Below, one piece after another: positions 14,348 to 26,318 of a DNA stretch of 46,056 nucleotides. This DNA is from a virus, in the IMG/VR virus record IMGVR_UViG_3300048838_000493, positions 1 to 46,056 of that record, one strand, 5' to 3'. The position numbers and the translations under genes were made by a program. The notes beneath the pieces were generated by a model, which was not told where the DNA came from, did not search any database, and was given only the letters and a program-made list of their open reading frames with translations. Numbering within the stretch: position 1 is the stretch's first letter; every line of letters starts with the position of its first letter.

Positions 14348-14644
14348 TCAACCTATAAAAATCAAAATGTAATTTAAGCACCCGCCGATAATCCAGAAAC
14401 ATAAATCTCTTATTGAGTCCATCCATGTCCGGGGTATTTCTAAGGCTTTAATATATTTCCGATACTGATAACACTCCATGAGTAATCCGGATATAAAACC
14501 GTATAACACCGGCAAGTATATTATCGGAAAAAAATGATAAATAAAAAATGAAATCCAGAAACCATAAAACATATGTGTATGCTGATATGCGAGTTCTTTT
14601 ACGTTCCAGAATGCTTTCTTATCAGTTGTTATTCCGAATGGCAT
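14348..14644 (-). CDS. membrane protein, holin candidate
   Basis: A 98-residue protein with about three hydrophobic segments: FYGFWISFFIYHFFPIIY (near 26-43), LPVLYGFISGLLM (44-56) and CFWIIGGCLNYILIFIG (82-98). A polar loop (ECYQYRKYIKALEIPRTWMDSIRD) separates the last two. Size and topology would suit a class I holin. The conserved-looking E...D..RD pattern also recalls small VanZ-like membrane proteins. The ATG has a strong GAGGAGG ribosome site at 14652-14658 and lies inside the end of the NrdD-like gene. Confidence 0.6.
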   Translation of the reverse strand: MPFGITTDKKAFWNVKELAYQHTHMFYGFWISFFIYHFFPIIYLPVLYGFISGLLMECYQYRKYIKALEIPRTWMDSIRDLCFWIIGGCLNYILIFIG

Positions 14645-14775
14645 ATTGTGGCCTCCTCAAATTTTACTGTTTGTCTCTCACTGTATTCTTCCCGCTTCCC
14701 CTTGTTCCATTGCTGAACCGGGCGGAAATATCCGACAACGCGCGAATATACTTCTGTTGGCACTTTTTTATTCAT
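14629..14775 (-). CDS. stand-alone glycyl-radical C-terminal domain of anaerobic ribonucleotide reductase (NrdD-like)
   Basis: A 48-residue protein whose residues 7-39 match the C-terminal end of class III ribonucleotide reductase NrdD: TEVYSRVVGYFRPVQQWN, then KGKREEYSERQTVKF. The radical-bearing glycine would be Gly15 in the RVVGY motif. The catalytic barrel, the ATP cone and the usual CxxC zinc pairs of NrdD are absent, and no NrdG activase gene is seen. The ATG overlaps the stop of the preceding gene as ATGA, and the next gene starts inside its end, so it is embedded in an operon rather than being a decayed remnant. By analogy with YfiD/GrcA, which replaces the damaged end of pyruvate formate-lyase, it may restore oxygen-cleaved host NrdD. 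That role is inferred. Confidence 0.8.
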   Translation of the reverse strand: MNKKVPTEVYSRVVGYFRPVQQWNKGKREEYSERQTVKFEEATICHSE

Positions 14776-14873
14776 CTCAAATTATCTCCGTCATGCAACA
14801 TTGAAATCATAAAAAATATAAAAAGCAGGCACATGCAAGTTATAGCTGCCGTAATTACATTATCTACTATCAT
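14772..14873 (-). CDS. 33-residue membrane peptide
   Basis: A short protein, MIVDNVITAAITCMCLLFIFF followed by a polar end, with one clear transmembrane helix (about residues 6-25) and an acidic C-terminus. An AAGGA site lies 8 bases before the ATG. It overlaps the preceding gene by 14 bases and the NrdD-like gene by 4 (ATGA). It could be a holin partner or a membrane anchor. No family was recognised. Confidence 0.5.
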   Translation of the reverse strand: MIVDNVITAAITCMCLLFIFFMISMLHDGDNLR

Positions 14874-14997
14874 TTTTATTTTCCTTTTCATTTTCTTTTA
14901 TTGGTGTAAAACATTTTTTAATGTCGTTTCCGTTTTTCATTTCCATGCAGTAAATATATTTTGAACAGAAGAAACAGCAATTTTTAGAAACTGACAT
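14860..14997 (-). CDS. 45-residue cysteine-rich protein
   Basis: A small protein beginning MSVSKNCCFFCSKYIYCMEM. Cysteines at 7, 8, 11, 17 and 29 form a C-x2-C...C...C set that may bind zinc or iron-sulfur. The C-terminus is lysine/glutamate-rich. The ATG is preceded by GGGG at proper spacing and lies inside the end of the upstream membrane gene. A phage gene of this size with a CxxC cluster is plausible but not assigned to a family. Confidence 0.5.
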   Translation of the reverse strand: MSVSKNCCFFCSKYIYCMEMKNGNDIKKCFTPIKENEKENKNDSR

Positions 14998-15136
14998 TTA
15001 TTGCCCCAAAATAAAAACCGGCTATGGTTATGATTATCAGTGTCATACAGATTATAAGTATAATATTTCTTATGCGCTTGAATTTTGTCTTATTGCCAAG
15101 AATTTCGCTGACTGCTTTTATTTCTTCTTTTGCCAT
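14984..15136 (-). CDS. 50-residue single-pass membrane protein, holin candidate
   Basis: Starts MAKEEIKAVSEILGNKTKFK, a charged N-terminal helix. One transmembrane segment follows (IILIICMTLIIITIAGFYFG, about residues 25-44). An ideal AAGGAG site lies 8 bases before the ATG. It follows the metallopeptidase gene by one base and overlaps the cysteine-rich gene by 14. The N-in tail plus one helix would fit a small holin or spanin-like partner, but this is inferred. Confidence 0.6.
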   Translation of the reverse strand: MAKEEIKAVSEILGNKTKFKRIRNIILIICMTLIIITIAGFYFGAINVSF

Positions 15137-15137
15137 T

Positions 15138-15446
15138 TTAGTTCTCCTTAATGATTTTATTCCTGATTAAAACGTCTGATAATCCGAGTGCTAATCTATC
15201 AATAAATTTTTCATCGTGTTCTTCGTCATATAGTCCGAGGTCAAAACATACAGCGTGTATAACTTCGTGCAATAATGTTTGCAATTCAATTGATTCCTGT
15301 GATTTTCTTATCCTGATAACTTTATTGTTGTAATCACAGTCACCGCATAACAGTATATCCGGAATATCAGTGTTGCTGAAATAATCCTTTTCCATTATTA
15401 CTTTCCAGTTTACGGAAAATATGTTTAATGTTTTTGGTATCTTCAT
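15138..15446 (-). CDS. zinc metallopeptidase (HExxH), ImmA/SprT-like
   Basis: A 102-residue protein with the zinc-binding motif HEVIH at residues 60-64. A downstream acidic helix (HDEKFIDRLALGLSDVLIRN) probably supplies the third ligand. This compact layout (beta start, 'TLLHE.IHA', then 'E..v..la..l..vl') matches phage-borne gluzincin-like peptidases related to ImmA/IrrE and SprT. Such enzymes may cleave repressors or process virion proteins; the target is unknown here. It lies directly after the papain-like gene and before small membrane proteins. Confidence 0.8.
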   Translation of the reverse strand: MKIPKTLNIFSVNWKVIMEKDYFSNTDIPDILLCGDCDYNNKVIRIRKSQESIELQTLLHEVIHAVCFDLGLYDEEHDEKFIDRLALGLSDVLIRNKIIKEN

Positions 15447-15447
15447 T

Positions 15448-15990
15448 TTAATTCATATCAAGTAATTTTTCAAACTGATTTGCTTTAATTTCTTTAAATG
15501 CTAATACACCGACTCCACGATTCATTGTATCAAATAAAAATAGCGCGCCCATTTTCATCATGCAGATAATAAAGTGGTTCTTTCGCTTTCCGGTTAGTGT
15601 TCTGCCAGTGTAAATTCTGAGCTGATAAACTCCATCCGGTTTTAATTTTGTAGGATTTATTATCTGGTTGTAATCTTCAATAAAGTTCAGTTTGAAATTT
15701 TTAACTCCGAGCTTTTCACATAACGCCGGTTTGTCTGTGATATATCCATCTGCTTTTATTGTGCCTGATTCATACCCGATTTTAAAATACTCGTCATAAT
15801 TTATGCAGATTTTATCAGTAATAAATAAACCCATCCAGAAAGACACAGAGTTGCAATGTGATAACGCGTATTTTTTAGCCTGTTTTTCGGTGCAATCCAA
15901 TACAAGCATTATATCTTTCCAGAGTAACGAGTCATCGTTCACCTGATTATATTTTTTTGCCATGCCACGCAAGATTTCAAATTTATACAT
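15448..15990 (-). CDS. papain-like cysteine peptidase-like protein (DUF261-like)
   Basis: A protein of 180 residues from the ATG at 15990, chosen because GGAG lies about 10 bases before it. An ATG 12 bases further upstream directly abuts that GGAG and is unlikely. The pattern of a cysteine in an early helix (LSHCNSVSFWMGLF), a middle strand pair, KNHFIICMM and LFLFDTMNRG recalls the Cys...His...Asp/Asn order of papain/NlpC-type folds. It also resembles Borrelia DUF261 proteins. It may act on peptide cross-links (lysis or entry) or be a non-catalytic relative. The match is by eye and low-scoring, so the fold is a proposal. It overlaps the ferredoxin gene by 8 bases. Confidence 0.55.
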   Translation of the reverse strand: MYKFEILRGMAKKYNQVNDDSLLWKDIMLVLDCTEKQAKKYALSHCNSVSFWMGLFITDKICINYDEYFKIGYESGTIKADGYITDKPALCEKLGVKNFKLNFIEDYNQIINPTKLKPDGVYQLRIYTGRTLTGKRKNHFIICMMKMGALFLFDTMNRGVGVLAFKEIKANQFEKLLDMN

Positions 15991-16165
15991 ATTCGACCGC
16001 ATCTCCTAAACAAGTTTTTAAAACTTCACACTCTTCACACCGTAGACATCTGTCTGAAATATAAGTACAAGAATATTTTCCATCCGCCTCAAACGCTTCG
16101 CCTTTGCAATTTTCTAAACAAGTACCACATCCGATACAATTATCAGGATTAAATTTTATGTTCAT
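15983..16165 (-). CDS. 2[4Fe-4S]-type ferredoxin
   Basis: A 60-residue protein with two cysteine sets. Cys10, 13, 16 and 20 (CIGCGTCLENC) form a classic CxxCxxCxxxC site. Cys40, 43, 46 and 52 (CLRCEECEVLKTC) form a second site with a longer last spacing, as in some bacterial ferredoxins. An extra Cys33 is present. The proline that usually follows the fourth cysteine of the first set is a lysine. It should be a soluble low-potential electron carrier. The ATG overlaps the preceding stop (ATGA), showing operon coupling. Phage ferredoxins exist but are rare in late structural operons. Its partner enzyme is unknown. Confidence 0.85.
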   Translation of the reverse strand: MNIKFNPDNCIGCGTCLENCKGEAFEADGKYSCTYISDRCLRCEECEVLKTCLGDAVEYV

Positions 16166-19841: not shown

Positions 19842-21725
19842 TTATTTCAATAGTCTCATCTCCACGTCATTCCAAATCTGTTCCGTCCATGAACTTAAAT
19901 TCAAATGTTCCGCTGCTGAACGTGCAAGAATCCATGTATCAAGCGGTTCATTTCGTTCATATATTTTCCTGTAATTCCATTTCCCCGGCTCCGTTTCGGC
20001 ATAGACTTCAGATAAAAAACCGCGAAAAAACTCCTCGCCGAGCTGTTTTGTAAAATGCATTTCGCCCGGTGCACCTGCGGGTAAATCAACTTTTACAAAT
20101 ATTTCATCTTTCAGCTCGTTTATTGCGTGGTCGTAACGTACTTTTAAAGGTGATTGTCTTTTTACTCGCTCCTCTTTTAATATTGTGTCTTTTAATTTTG
20201 CGTTACCTCTACATGCGATTGTCCGTGGTGTACGTGCCACCATTTCATAGACCGTATGCTCATAGGTTATGTCTGTTCCATCTATTTTGTCGTCGTCCGG
20301 GTTATATCCTGAATCTATCGCCGCACGGCTTATTATTACATCCACCGTTTCACGTTTTTTTAGCTTATATTTTTTCGTTGCAATAAAATTTCGCCAGTCC
20401 TGCCAGCATCTATCGTTTTTATCTTTTGTTCCGTTCTGTGCGTGGAACTTTCCTTCGTCTATTACCCATGACTGCATATCGCGCCCCCATGCAACAACGG
20501 TATATTGCAGGTACATTTTTTGAACGTCTGTTCCCATTGTTACAATTAGAGCACCCTCCGGTAATATGCCTAAAGGATAATCTTCTGATTTGTTGTATAG
20601 ATCGGTATAACTGCGTTTTTCTGTGCGGGCTTCCCAAGCTTCACCGAGTACATCAATAATAAAGTTTTTGAGCTTTAAAATATTTGCACCCCATCCGGTC
20701 TCTGCAAACTCCTGCATGCACTGAGTCCATGAATAAAATACAACGGGAGACATTAAATTGCTTATATGATAACTTCTATATCGCGGGTTTACCGGTCGCG
20801 CCGTTGGTATCCATTTACCGCCATTTAACATCTGACCTTTCTGATATTCCTTAATCATTTTTTTGCAGAACTTACAAATATAGCCAACTGAATCAGGGAT
20901 AATCAATTCTAATTTATCAACCATTTCAGAGCGTGCAAATAAACCGTGTTGTCTGCCTTCTGTCATGAGTTCCAAAACCTGAAGCTCGCCACATAAAGGG
21001 CACTGACAAAAATATTTTCGTTGGTCACCTTCAAGCCAGTTTTTATGGATTCTGCCTTGTGTGTTTGTTGGCGTACTGATTTTAATTATTTTAAATCCTC
21101 TTATTGTTTTTGTACGCCCGCGAAATATTGCTTCAACATCGCCCTGTCCTTTTAGTTCACCGTGTGGCGCTTCCTCCAACTCATCCATAATAATGAGACT
21201 GTACGAAAAGCTCTTCGCGTCGGCTATTGAATTATAGCTTGTCATAAGTAATCGCCGATTGCCGTGCATCTCTTTATAAAACGCGCCGTCTGCAACTTTC
21301 TTTTTTGCACGTTGTGAAATCGGCTTCATGCAGTCAGCTAATCCGGAGTAGTCTATCATTGTGTCAATAGCGGCGGAGGAGCGCATTTTTGCCATAGATA
21401 AAGATGATATGATATACAGGATATTATGCAATTTATATTTTATACTATGCCCTATCACATTTTCCGCGGCTGTTGTTATGAGTGCCTGAGTGCCTTTTTT
21501 GATTGTGATTACATCAACATCACTGTCTGGGTGTGCGGCATCCATAATCTCAACGGAATACGGAGCAAGAGAATGGTCTACCATGCCGGGGTATTCTGTT
21601 GTTCCCGCGGGGAGGTATCTATTTTGTGAGGCCCATTCTGATATGAGCGGAATATGCGCGTCTGTATGCCATGTATTTATATAACGGGTTAATTTTTCAC
21701 GGGATTGGATTTCTATGTCTATCAA
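19842..21725 (-). CDS. terminase large subunit, lambda gpA family
   Basis: A 627-residue packaging motor and nuclease. The N-terminal ATPase part contains VDVITIKKGTQALITTAAEN (about 69-88, Walker A region). LIIMDELEEAPHGE near 175 is the Walker B and catalytic carboxylate region, and KISTPTNTQGRIHKNWLEG near 215 is the coupling motif. Two CxxC pairs (CQCPLCGEL and CKFCKKM) form a zinc site seen in gpA-type terminases. The C-terminal nuclease part holds GTDVQKMYLQYTVVAWG and AAIDSGYNPDDDK acidic residues. It overlaps the Mom-like gene by 4 bases. Length is close to lambda gpA (641). Confidence 0.93.
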   Translation of the reverse strand: MIDIEIQSREKLTRYINTWHTDAHIPLISEWASQNRYLPAGTTEYPGMVDHSLAPYSVEIMDAAHPDSDVDVITIKKGTQALITTAAENVIGHSIKYKLHNILYIISSLSMAKMRSSAAIDTMIDYSGLADCMKPISQRAKKKVADGAFYKEMHGNRRLLMTSYNSIADAKSFSYSLIIMDELEEAPHGELKGQGDVEAIFRGRTKTIRGFKIIKISTPTNTQGRIHKNWLEGDQRKYFCQCPLCGELQVLELMTEGRQHGLFARSEMVDKLELIIPDSVGYICKFCKKMIKEYQKGQMLNGGKWIPTARPVNPRYRSYHISNLMSPVVFYSWTQCMQEFAETGWGANILKLKNFIIDVLGEAWEARTEKRSYTDLYNKSEDYPLGILPEGALIVTMGTDVQKMYLQYTVVAWGRDMQSWVIDEGKFHAQNGTKDKNDRCWQDWRNFIATKKYKLKKRETVDVIISRAAIDSGYNPDDDKIDGTDITYEHTVYEMVARTPRTIACRGNAKLKDTILKEERVKRQSPLKVRYDHAINELKDEIFVKVDLPAGAPGEMHFTKQLGEEFFRGFLSEVYAETEPGKWNYRKIYERNEPLDTWILARSAAEHLNLSSWTEQIWNDVEMRLLK

Positions 21726-22411
21726 TTTGTTTTTTCCTTATAATGTTTTGGGTATGGTTTTTCTGTTAATAAGCAATCTCTAATACATCGTTTATCTATA
21801 AAATAAATATATCTGAATTGCCTTAATTTTTCACTTGTCGCCCTGTCTTTTCCTTCCTGTAATATTGCAGCACTTTTTGAAAGTTCGGGCCGTCTTGTCA
21901 TTAAACTATTATGGTATATTTCATCGTCCAATGTCCAAAATATAGCTTCATGTTCACCGTAATATTTAAAATTTGCCGCTTGATATACTATCCCAAAACA
22001 TCCACAGCGTTCATCAGCAAAAGATTGTATCCATTTAATTGCTGGATATTTTCTTTTAATATATTTTATACTGTATGAAATGGCCTTGCTTTCTGAATTT
22101 CTTCCGGCCTTGTCGTCCAGCCACATCCTATTTAATTCTAAATATTCTTTTATACCAGTATTCTTGACAACACTTTCTTGACTTGCCGGATTCATTGCGT
22201 ATCCATATTGTAACACTCCGAGCAATCCATTATTTATAAATATTCCCAAATGTATATAACTTGCAGAATAAAACTTTTTAGAATAATGATTCTTTTTTAT
22301 AATATAGTTAGCCTTGTCCCTTATAATTTCTTTTACAAAAAAACTTTCATCACCGAACCCAACAACATCATTATGGCCAAATAATGTTTGTTCCTCAAGA
22401 TATTTTTTCAT
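21722..22411 (-). CDS. Mom-like DNA adenine modification protein (GNAT-fold)
   Basis: A 229-residue protein resembling phage Mu Mom and relatives, which turn adenine into N6-carbamoylmethyl-adenine and so block many restriction enzymes. Visible family features are IKKNHYSKKFYSASY (about 38-52), LGVLQYGYAMNPA, LELNRMWLDDKAGRNSES (about 91-108), AIKWIQSFADERCG and the end part YQAANFKYYGEHEAIFWTL. These correspond to Mom's 'KNHYS', 'LELNR..L.D....SES' and 'SFAD' blocks. It sits between the two terminase genes with ATGA overlaps on both sides. Modification coupled to packaging is an attractive but unproven idea. A plain GNAT acetyltransferase is the alternative. Confidence 0.8.
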   Translation of the reverse strand: MKKYLEEQTLFGHNDVVGFGDESFFVKEIIRDKANYIIKKNHYSKKFYSASYIHLGIFINNGLLGVLQYGYAMNPASQESVVKNTGIKEYLELNRMWLDDKAGRNSESKAISYSIKYIKRKYPAIKWIQSFADERCGCFGIVYQAANFKYYGEHEAIFWTLDDEIYHNSLMTRRPELSKSAAILQEGKDRATSEKLRQFRYIYFIDKRCIRDCLLTEKPYPKHYKEKTN

Positions 22412-25059: not shown

Positions 25060-25200
25060 ATGGATTCAAAACGTAAAACACTTTTAATAAATGAAGAATT
25101 ACACAAACGCTTTTCAGAATATTGCAAAAAAGAAGGATTGGTTATGATAAATTTAACCGAGAGAATAATTTCTGATTTTCTTAAAAAGGTGGTGAAATAG
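25060..25200 (+). CDS. 46-residue ribbon-helix-helix-like DNA-binding protein
   Basis: MDSKRKTLLINEELHKRFSE opens with a short strand and two helices. The rest (YCKKEGLVMINLTERIISDF) fits the ribbon-helix-helix plan with LLINEELHKRFSEYCKKEG as strand plus helix A. It is the first early gene, 30 bases after the early promoter, with AAGGAG at correct spacing. The stop overlaps the GTG start of the next gene by one base. A repressor of the early promoter or a host-gene regulator is plausible; the operator is unknown. Confidence 0.65.
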   Translation: MDSKRKTLLINEELHKRFSEYCKKEGLVMINLTERIISDFLKKVVK

Positions 25201-26318
25201 TGAATAAAATAATTATAGATAATGAATTTAAAAAACTAATACCACCACTAACACCGGATGAATTTAAACAGCTCGAAGAAAATATTATTTCCGAAGGTAT
25301 AAGGGATAATTTAATAATATGGAATAATATCCTTATTGATGGACATAACAGATATGAAATCGCACAGAAACACGGTATTAAATTTAATATAATTGAAAAG
25401 AATTTTTCAAACCGTGAAGATGTGAAAATATGGATAATAAAAAATCAGTTTGGAAGAAGAAATATTACAGCTTATGACAGAAGCAGATTGGCCTTACAGC
25501 TTGAACCGTTGATAGCGGGGAAGGCGAAGGAAAATCAAATAAGAAATTATGAAAACCGTGTTTGTCAGAAATCTGACGAACAAAAAATTGACACAAAAAA
25601 AGAACTTGCCACGCTTGCCGGTGTATCACATGACACAATAGCAAAGGTTAAAGTTATTGAACAGAAAGCGGACGAAGAAACAAAAGAAAAATTATCATCG
25701 GGGGAGGTGTCAATCAATCAGGCATATAAAGAAATAAAACAGGCCGAAAAGAAAGAACAGTTTGATGAGAAAATTAAAAAACAAAAACAAGATATAGAAA
25801 GTGGAAAAATTCAAATGCCGGACGGAGTGTTTGAGGTTATAGTTATTGACCCCCCTTGGAATTACGGTCGAGAATATGACCCAGATTCAAGTAGAGTTGC
25901 TAATCCATATCCCGAAATGAGTCAAGAAGAATTATTAAAAATAAATTTACCATCATCAAAAGATTCTATAATTTTTTTATGGACTACACATAAATTTTTA
26001 TGGAATGCTAAAGAACTAATGGATAAATGGGGTTTTGAATATAAAGCAAATTTAGTGTGGGATAAAGAAAAAATTGGAATGGGTGCATGGCTACGAATGC
26101 AATGTGAATTTTGTCTTGTTGGTATAAAAGGAAAGCCTATATGGAATAATACAAAATGGAGAGATATAATTAGAGAGCCGCGCCGTGAACACTCAAGAAA
26201 GCCAGAAATTTTTTATACTATGATTGAAGAAATTACAGTCGGAAGAAAACTTAATTTTTTCAGCAGAGATAAAAGAGAAGGATGGGTATCTTATGGCAAT
26301 GACACTGAAAAATTTTAA
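25200..26318 (+). CDS. ParB-domain/MT-A70 adenine methyltransferase fusion
   Basis: A 372-residue protein starting at GTG. Residues 1-95 form a ParB/Srx-type domain, with EFKQLEENIISEGIRDN and ILIDGHNRYEIAQKHGI. A helix-turn-helix region follows (ATLAGVSHDTIAKVKVIEQ, about 138-156), then a coiled linker. The C-terminal MT-A70 domain carries the catalytic DPPW at 217-220 and later IIFLWTTHKFLWNAKEL and KPEIFYTMIEEIT. MT-A70 enzymes make N6-methyladenine. ParB-fused forms are found in phages and may bring sequence binding or nucleotide-dependent activity. It overlaps the next gene by about 20 bases and lies in the first early operon. The methylated site is unknown. Confidence 0.88.
   Translation: MNKIIIDNEFKKLIPPLTPDEFKQLEENIISEGIRDNLIIWNNILIDGHNRYEIAQKHGIKFNIIEKNFSNREDVKIWIIKNQFGRRNITAYDRSRLALQLEPLIAGKAKENQIRNYENRVCQKSDEQKIDTKKELATLAGVSHDTIAKVKVIEQKADEETKEKLSSGEVSINQAYKEIKQAEKKEQFDEKIKKQKQDIESGKIQMPDGVFEVIVIDPPWNYGREYDPDSSRVANPYPEMSQEELLKINLPSSKDSIIFLWTTHKFLWNAKELMDKWGFEYKANLVWDKEKIGMGAWLRMQCEFCLVGIKGKPIWNNTKWRDIIREPRREHSRKPEIFYTMIEEITVGRKLNFFSRDKREGWVSYGNDTEKF

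Follow-up and report, generated by a model that had tools for sequence, protein, structure and literature searches.

A stand-alone phage peptide as a candidate exchangeable glycyl-radical subunit for the anaerobic ribonucleotide reductase of its host

In the virus record IMGVR_UViG_3300048838_000493 of IMG/VR, analysed here as a whole (46,056 bases; hereafter the window), a minus-strand open reading frame (ORF) at 14,629-14,775 encodes a stand-alone peptide of 48 residues that matches the C-terminal glycyl-radical region of NrdD, the class III (anaerobic) ribonucleotide reductase (RNR). Judged from its sequence, this peptide is probably a viral, exchangeable glycyl-radical subunit for the class III RNR of the host, to be charged by the host NrdG. 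The original prediction had also assigned it to the host anaerobic RNR, and this part has been much strengthened; the redox module that was predicted along with it is unsupported. We also lean, with less confidence, towards a broader proposal, namely that in Spirochaetota and other anaerobes two polypeptides make up the class III RNR, with its radical on a small exchangeable subunit, and that viruses of these hosts have captured this subunit and swap its variants to commandeer the host enzyme.

Stand-alone glycyl-radical peptides in phages

The peptide scored 36.8 bits (E 2.5e-9; cut-off, 26.2) against the Pfam family NRDD (PF13597), and the match was confined to profile positions 532-560 of 562. 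The part covered is the glycyl-radical loop and the C-terminus of NrdD and nothing else, with the RVxGY motif present as RVVGY and the C-terminal segment as RPVQQWNKGK..E...R. No other NRDD match was found in the 46,056-base record, and neither the peptide nor the record holds a catalytic barrel with finger-loop cysteines. The Zn ribbon precedes the point at which the peptide starts and belongs to the bodies of the host enzymes. A Pfam scan at E values up to 1 returned NRDD only and gave no homology with the C-terminal glycyl-radical domain of pyruvate formate-lyase (PFL).

IMG/VR was searched with the peptide, and the best 80 of 208 relatives were analysed. The ORF containing the match is no longer than 261 residues at 71 of these 80 viral loci, mostly 43-126 residues even with the earliest possible start codon taken, and is of NrdD size at the other nine. 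Inspection of the whole records of the 71 short-ORF loci, which are often fragments, showed that 68 hold the C-terminal piece only, while three (L003, L010, and L018) additionally hold an NrdD body ending before that piece. The carriers are diverse phages, the most widely shared neighbour being terminase, in 11 loci; apart from the peptide and phage genes of a generic kind, clustering of neighbours across the lone-peptide viral loci and the window revealed no conserved partner. The ratio of nonsynonymous (dN) to synonymous (dS) substitution, omega, had a median of 0.30 over 61 comparable pairs of phage peptides, ranged from 0 to about 0.7 among the pairs listed, and took low values in the most similar phage pairs. 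The radical glycine and the residues around it were kept in all 20 rows of a hand-picked alignment that includes several types. Collectively, these comparisons show that predicted stand-alone NrdD glycyl-radical peptides are widespread in phages, mostly in phages without an NrdD body. They also show that a short viral or bacterial ORF bearing the annotation 'anaerobic ribonucleoside-triphosphate reductase' is not necessarily a fragment or a full RNR.

Two other accounts of the peptide were rejected. It is not regarded as a decayed nrdD remnant, since it belongs to a conserved stand-alone family with low omega in close pairs, nor as part of a complete phage RNR, since a body is missing from the window record and from 68 of the 71 records of its relatives. 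A related case is the archaeal virus ANMV-1 (KP703175; L083), whose 'nrdD' product (AJP62049) is likewise only a stand-alone glycyl-radical protein; it differs in its length of about 144 residues and in an extra region with two cysteine pairs. In the available text of its publication, this gene is presented as an oxygen-sensitive RNR and used to argue for an anaerobic host (PMC4372165).

Class III ribonucleotide reductases split after the Zn ribbon

A genome collection was scanned with a pattern typical of the stand-alone peptides, and 80 of the 91 relatives obtained were analysed. Sixty-three were short ORFs preceded by an NrdD body in the upstream flank, directly adjacent in all but one (L155), eight had no NrdD body in the flank examined, and nine lay in NrdD chains, one of them a 208-residue piece. 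The loci came from Spirochaetes, Thermodesulfobacteria, Chloroflexi/Anaerolineae, Aminicenantes, and several archaeal lineages, and the named isolates with a split enzyme are Thermodesulfobacterium thermophilum DSM 1276, T. hveragerdense DSM 12571, T. hydrogeniphilum DSM 14290, and Thermodesulfatator autotrophicus. In NrdD, according to the accessible portion of PMC4493059, the Zn ribbon sits between the barrel and the radical loop. The split bodies retain this ribbon and stop just after it, and the small ORF begins at the linker that follows. A radical S-adenosylmethionine (radical-SAM) ORF lies immediately downstream at 38 of 55 split loci by a stricter motif count in which some genomes are counted twice, and a frequent operon order is body, small subunit, nrdG.

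Among Spirochaetota, 78 of 149 genomes had an NRDD match. Seventy-three of these entered a combined table, the other five having an NrdD C-terminus that was unmatched by the alignment used; 53 have a body with an adjacent small ORF, 11 a body without one, and nine intact NrdD only. The 53 adjacent pairs are separated by gaps of 87-469 nucleotides, apart from one overlapping pair (G111), and their small ORFs span 56-235 residues. In five of the 11 non-adjacent genomes (G116, G124, G189, G224, and G229; complete genomes of about 2.8 Mb each), body and small ORF lie on one contig, about 95-527 kb apart; in G224 (2,843,201 bases) the small ORF overlaps a radical-SAM gene, and the body is about 517 kb away. 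In the phylum of Thermodesulfobacterium, 112 of 197 genomes had a match and 17 of 197 had the split form, the 17 being 15 of the 16 genomes examined together with G081 and G087; the sixteenth, G338, looks like a frame break. These surveys show that, as predicted from gene sequence, many anaerobes naturally encode their class III RNR in two pieces, the break falling after the Zn ribbon, with a body that lacks the radical glycine and a small glycyl-radical ORF apart from it. In the likely host groups, such a body and NrdG occur in the same cell. A reading of many Spirochaetota enzymes as one-piece proteins with a long linker was rejected, as the true reading frames of their C-terminal pieces are short.

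Fourteen split bodies showed 52-77% identity to the first of them, and the finger-loop CysCys was invariant. An AlphaFold model of one split body (mean predicted local distance difference test score, 77.8) matched class III RNRs at Z of about 30-35, with root-mean-square deviations of 2.4-3.5 over 460-504 residues in alignments leaving out the N-terminal domain. The model aligned to T. maritima NrdD up to residue 589-610, depending on the chain, that is, before Gly621, given as the radical glycine in the same portion of PMC4493059. As modelled, the split body folds as a class III RNR.

Some host small subunits have features of their own. In Treponema-like loci (L220, L216, L219, L210, and similar ones), the separate small NrdD subunit has a C-terminal glutaredoxin-like domain (PF00462 on L220; from sequence on the others), which places the radical site and a likely reductant on one small protein. 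At L192 and L198, the separate small subunit adjoins a different radical-SAM gene, possibly encoding another activase, and the body is elsewhere. Spirochaete host small subunits in the range L086-L125 often end in a YEYxGN-like tail, possibly regulatory, that is absent from the window peptide.

The proposed role of the peptide and competing explanations

The window peptide starts in the linker between the Zn ribbon and the radical loop, at the same boundary as the split small subunits. Over a core of 37 residues it is identical at 28 positions to several split subunits of spirochaetes and Thermodesulfobacteria (L090, L096, L097, L102, L114, and others), compared with 26 for the best phage peptide and 24 for the best intact NrdD; the small subunits that it resembles most are those of spirochaetes. 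Similar sequences exist among split subunits for other types of phage peptide too, namely the KCDAKTEVYSRVCGFFRPV type (L226, L227) and the ..GTPCE.YSRVVGY type (L223, L224, L228). When 70 phage peptides were compared with 17 references, the best reference was a split or separate subunit for 40 and an intact NrdD for 30, with many near ties. Given that the portal protein of the window has 42% identity over 461 residues to a protein in one spirochaete genome, a spirochaete host is plausible for this phage.

Comparison with the sister phage L082 points to movement of the gene. Nucleotide identity is 87-100% as far as the ATG of the peptide, where it drops to 53-57%; over the peptide and its end it is 53-77%, and in the gene that follows it recovers to 77-90% for the most part. 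The peptide has dN 0.46 and dS 1.41, compared with dN of at most 0.08 and dS of 0.15-0.74 for six neighbours. By this pattern the sister phage has exchanged exactly the peptide gene, the high dS fitting replacement by a variant rather than faster change, and an exchange so confined suggests matching with different host enzymes. On the viral contig L008, a small-subunit ORF shares 97.6% identity with the host gene of T. hveragerdense over 207 bases and likely represents a recent capture from the host. L003 and L008 share phage stretches that are 96% identical, in which the small-subunit ORF follows DNA methyltransferase-like genes in L008 and a host-type NrdD body in L003; this difference may mean that the phage integrates at nrdD, or that the assembly of L003 was joined at the 207 bases in common.

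Extra stand-alone copies (17 in 11 spirochaete genomes) resemble the small subunit of their own genome more than those of other genomes, with a mean percentile of 0.82. In an own-genome shuffle test, 463 identities were counted against a shuffled mean of 401, and 0 of 20,000 shuffles were as high; a strict subset of 12 copies in 8 hosts gave p 0.0002. Copies lie among phage genes at L169, L173, L174, L175, L199, and L243, and L196 adjoins a terminase-like protein. Extra lone copies were present in 11 of the 53 split and one of the nine intact-only Spirochaetota genomes, too few to claim an association.

The glycyl radical is generated by NrdG, and the glycine that carries it is where oxygen cleaves the chain. 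In the mechanism that we propose, host NrdG would charge the phage subunit after infection, the loop of this subunit would insert into the host NrdD body, and the completed enzyme would keep or raise the synthesis of deoxyribonucleoside triphosphates (dNTPs) for phage DNA. The phage subunit would thereby replace host subunits that are absent, limiting, or oxygen-cleaved. In a host with a split enzyme, insertion would need no damage, and the body may simply be open to competition from the phage subunit; in a host with one-piece NrdD, the peptide would act after oxygen cleavage, as a spare part like YfiD/Y06I for PFL. Possible gains for the phage are more dNTPs, recovery after oxygen, and escape from host control. 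If this is true, a 150-base gene would give a phage control over an essential enzyme of 700 residues, an unusually cheap hold on the dNTP supply of the host.

Several observations weigh against this proposal. With terminase on one side and portal on the other, the gene stands where late expression would be expected, which is not an obvious place for a dNTP gene. The genome scan was seeded with a pattern of the stand-alone type, so the share of split enzymes among its 80 loci is not a frequency. The shuffle test is uncorrected for phylogeny and includes possible chromosomal paralogues; only 6 of 26 extra-copy loci have two or more phage-like neighbours, and some extra copies adjoin housekeeping genes (biotin-protein ligase, phosphomethylpyrimidine kinase, lactate dehydrogenase-like), so not all are viral. 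The similarity of the portal proteins is remote, and a portal match of any kind occurs in only 7 of 392 spirochaete genomes. Since an intact NrdD is the best reference for 30 of the 70 phage peptides, a split host enzyme does not account for the whole family, and one-piece hosts are likely for many of its phages. Copies beside biotin-protein ligase or metabolic genes also indicate that hosts seem to keep spares of their own; at L166 and L200, in two different spirochaete genomes, stand-alone small subunits adjoin the biotin-protein ligase gene, apparently outside any phage.

A less probable alternative is that the peptide is purely an oxygen-repair part, replacing the lost C-terminus of a one-piece host NrdD that has been cut at its radical glycine. 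YfiD/GrcA of E. coli and Y06I of phage T4 are likewise small stand-alone glycyl-radical proteins, homologous to the C-terminus of a glycyl radical enzyme and served by a separate activase, and that of T4, which acts on PFL, is virus-encoded. According to the accessible part of PMC8683613, only these two had been validated as of 2021, and spare parts for other glycyl radical enzymes were considered possible. The 30 phage peptides closest to intact NrdD C-termini favour such repair, as does a chromosomal protein of about 102 residues, ending in the same glycyl-radical sequence, that intact-NrdD genomes can carry. However, the window peptide is closest to split subunits, no lone copy of the same type was found beside a strong-scoring intact NrdD in the 197 genomes of the Thermodesulfobacterium phylum, and the N-terminal part of YfiD is absent from the 48 residues. 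The peptide further differs from YfiD and Y06I in that its proposed partner is NrdD rather than PFL and that hosts of its type often have no one-piece enzyme to repair. The protein of about 102 residues was seen at L183, L184, L185, and L186 (genomes G350, G299, G325, and G393); its N-terminal part is of no recognised kind, and its C-terminus is like that of the intact NrdD of the same genome (GITRITGYFTK..). It has a YfiD-like architecture for NrdD, and intact NrdD is present in three of its four genomes.

It is unlikely that the peptide is a dominant-negative inhibitor, which would occupy the loop site of the body or titrate NrdG and so block dNTP synthesis of the host or a competing phage. 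The peptide could bind the same surfaces, and small phage peptides often inhibit host enzymes, but the radical glycine and its surroundings are kept in every row of the hand-picked alignment, the most similar phage pairs have a low omega, hosts have subunits of this kind in their own enzymes, and a phage needing dNTPs would gain little.

More doubtful still is a dedicated redox module, in which a ferredoxin, a cysteine-rich 45-mer, and the peptide would together recharge the RNR. The original prediction had placed the three genes in one minus-strand operon, linked by overlaps, and all three ORFs are indeed present and packed there, but they are not adjacent to each other. The ferredoxin (15,983-16,165, minus strand; 60 residues, nine cysteines, intact gene) exceeded the Pfam cut-offs for Fer4_6 (30.6 versus 25 bits), the dicluster family Fer4_7 (28.2 versus 27), and Fer4. 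It has two Fer4-type cysteine motifs, the first canonical and the second atypical by eye (CxxCxxC-x5-C), and is 92% identical in the sister phage, where dN 0.04 and dS 0.70 indicate purifying selection. The 45-mer (14,860-14,997, minus strand; intact gene) matched no family above cut-off; it is 89% identical in L082, with all cysteines retained, and among the viral loci compared its relatives were found only there. The module is favoured by the occurrence of the same operon in window and sister and by the established chemistry of NrdG-type glycyl-radical activation, which requires low-potential electrons. The co-occurrence that it predicts failed to appear: a ferredoxin-like ORF (CxxCxxCxxxC, at least 40 residues) was present at 0 of the 80 viral loci flanking peptide relatives, and among 46 records searched in full, 45 of them from the lone-peptide set of 71 and the other that of the sister, the ferredoxin had one clear match, in L082 (E 8.9e-38), and a weak second one (28% over 32 residues). 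A search of the viral collection, which covers close relatives only, likewise found the sister alone. With the ferredoxin absent around other peptide loci and the full set of three seen only in L082 (there without the 102-residue gene of the window), the module was rejected; ferredoxin and peptide are operon mates of one phage lineage, not general partners. No NrdG-like radical-SAM ORF was recognised by motif in the window or the lone-peptide viral loci, so any activation electrons would be delivered on the enzyme of the host; radical-SAM ORFs of two other kinds are present at the viral loci L026 and L029.

Least probable of all is that the host small-subunit gene is mere cargo, carried only because the phage recombines there: this would suit the near-identity of the L008 ORF to T. 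hveragerdense and the order in the related L003, where a host-type body and the small subunit precede the same phage genes, but the window ORF is translationally coupled within its operon and not near-identical to any host gene found, no integrase was recognised among the part of the window proteins scanned, and L003 may itself be an assembly artefact.

If the peptide is, as we favour, an exchangeable subunit of the host RNR, it would be the first such glycyl-radical protein, or spare part, for a ribonucleotide reductase, a possibility left open by the field in the accessible part of PMC8683613. With NrdD (PF13597; structures from T4, T. maritima, and Prevotella copri), the peptide shares the sequence of the glycyl-radical loop and C-terminus, and the split bodies share the fold; the phage protein differs in lacking the catalytic barrel, Zn ribbon, and nucleotide sites, and in related hosts the enzyme consists of two polypeptides. 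In P. aeruginosa an RNR chain is likewise distributed over two genes, but that enzyme belongs to class II (PMC4520616, available text). Phage nrdD genes split by introns, inteins, or breaks of unknown kind are described in the accessible portion of PMC3653736, whereas here the radical-bearing loop itself is the separate, mobile subunit. We found no earlier report of a stand-alone NrdD glycyl-radical subunit or a glycyl-split class III RNR in the available text of the open-licence literature. The spare-part question for RNR becomes testable with two small proteins and a body.

The operon and other genes of the window

The peptide gene stands within a minus-strand operon at 14.1-16.4 kb. In order of transcription, its products are a 66-residue protein, the ferredoxin, a 184-residue protein, a SprT-like protein of 102 residues, a 50-residue protein, the cysteine-rich 45-mer, a 39-residue protein, the NrdD peptide, and proteins of 98 and 80 residues. 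The genes from the ferredoxin to the 98-residue ORF are closely spaced, with overlaps or gaps of 1 nucleotide. The 184-residue protein (15,448-16,002), between the ferredoxin and the remaining genes, has no Pfam match and is 92% identical in L082. The SprT-like (HExxH-type) protein (15,138-15,446; phrog_1233) is missing at the same place in L082. The 50-residue protein (14,984-15,136; 98% identical in L082) and the 39-residue protein (14,772-14,891) each have a hydrophobic stretch. The stop codon of the 39-residue gene shares ATGA with the ATG of the peptide, upstream of which lies GGAG, and the start of the gene for the hydrophobic 98-residue protein (14,348-14,644; 85% identical in L082) overlaps the end of the peptide gene.

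Two further genes of the window concern DNA modification or methylation. The product of 21,722-22,411, adjoining the terminase gene, strongly matches the Mom DNA-modification protein family (PF25680, E 2.8e-70), and that of 25,200-26,318 combines an MT-A70 methyltransferase domain (PF05063) with an N-terminal sequence that appears ParB-like by eye.

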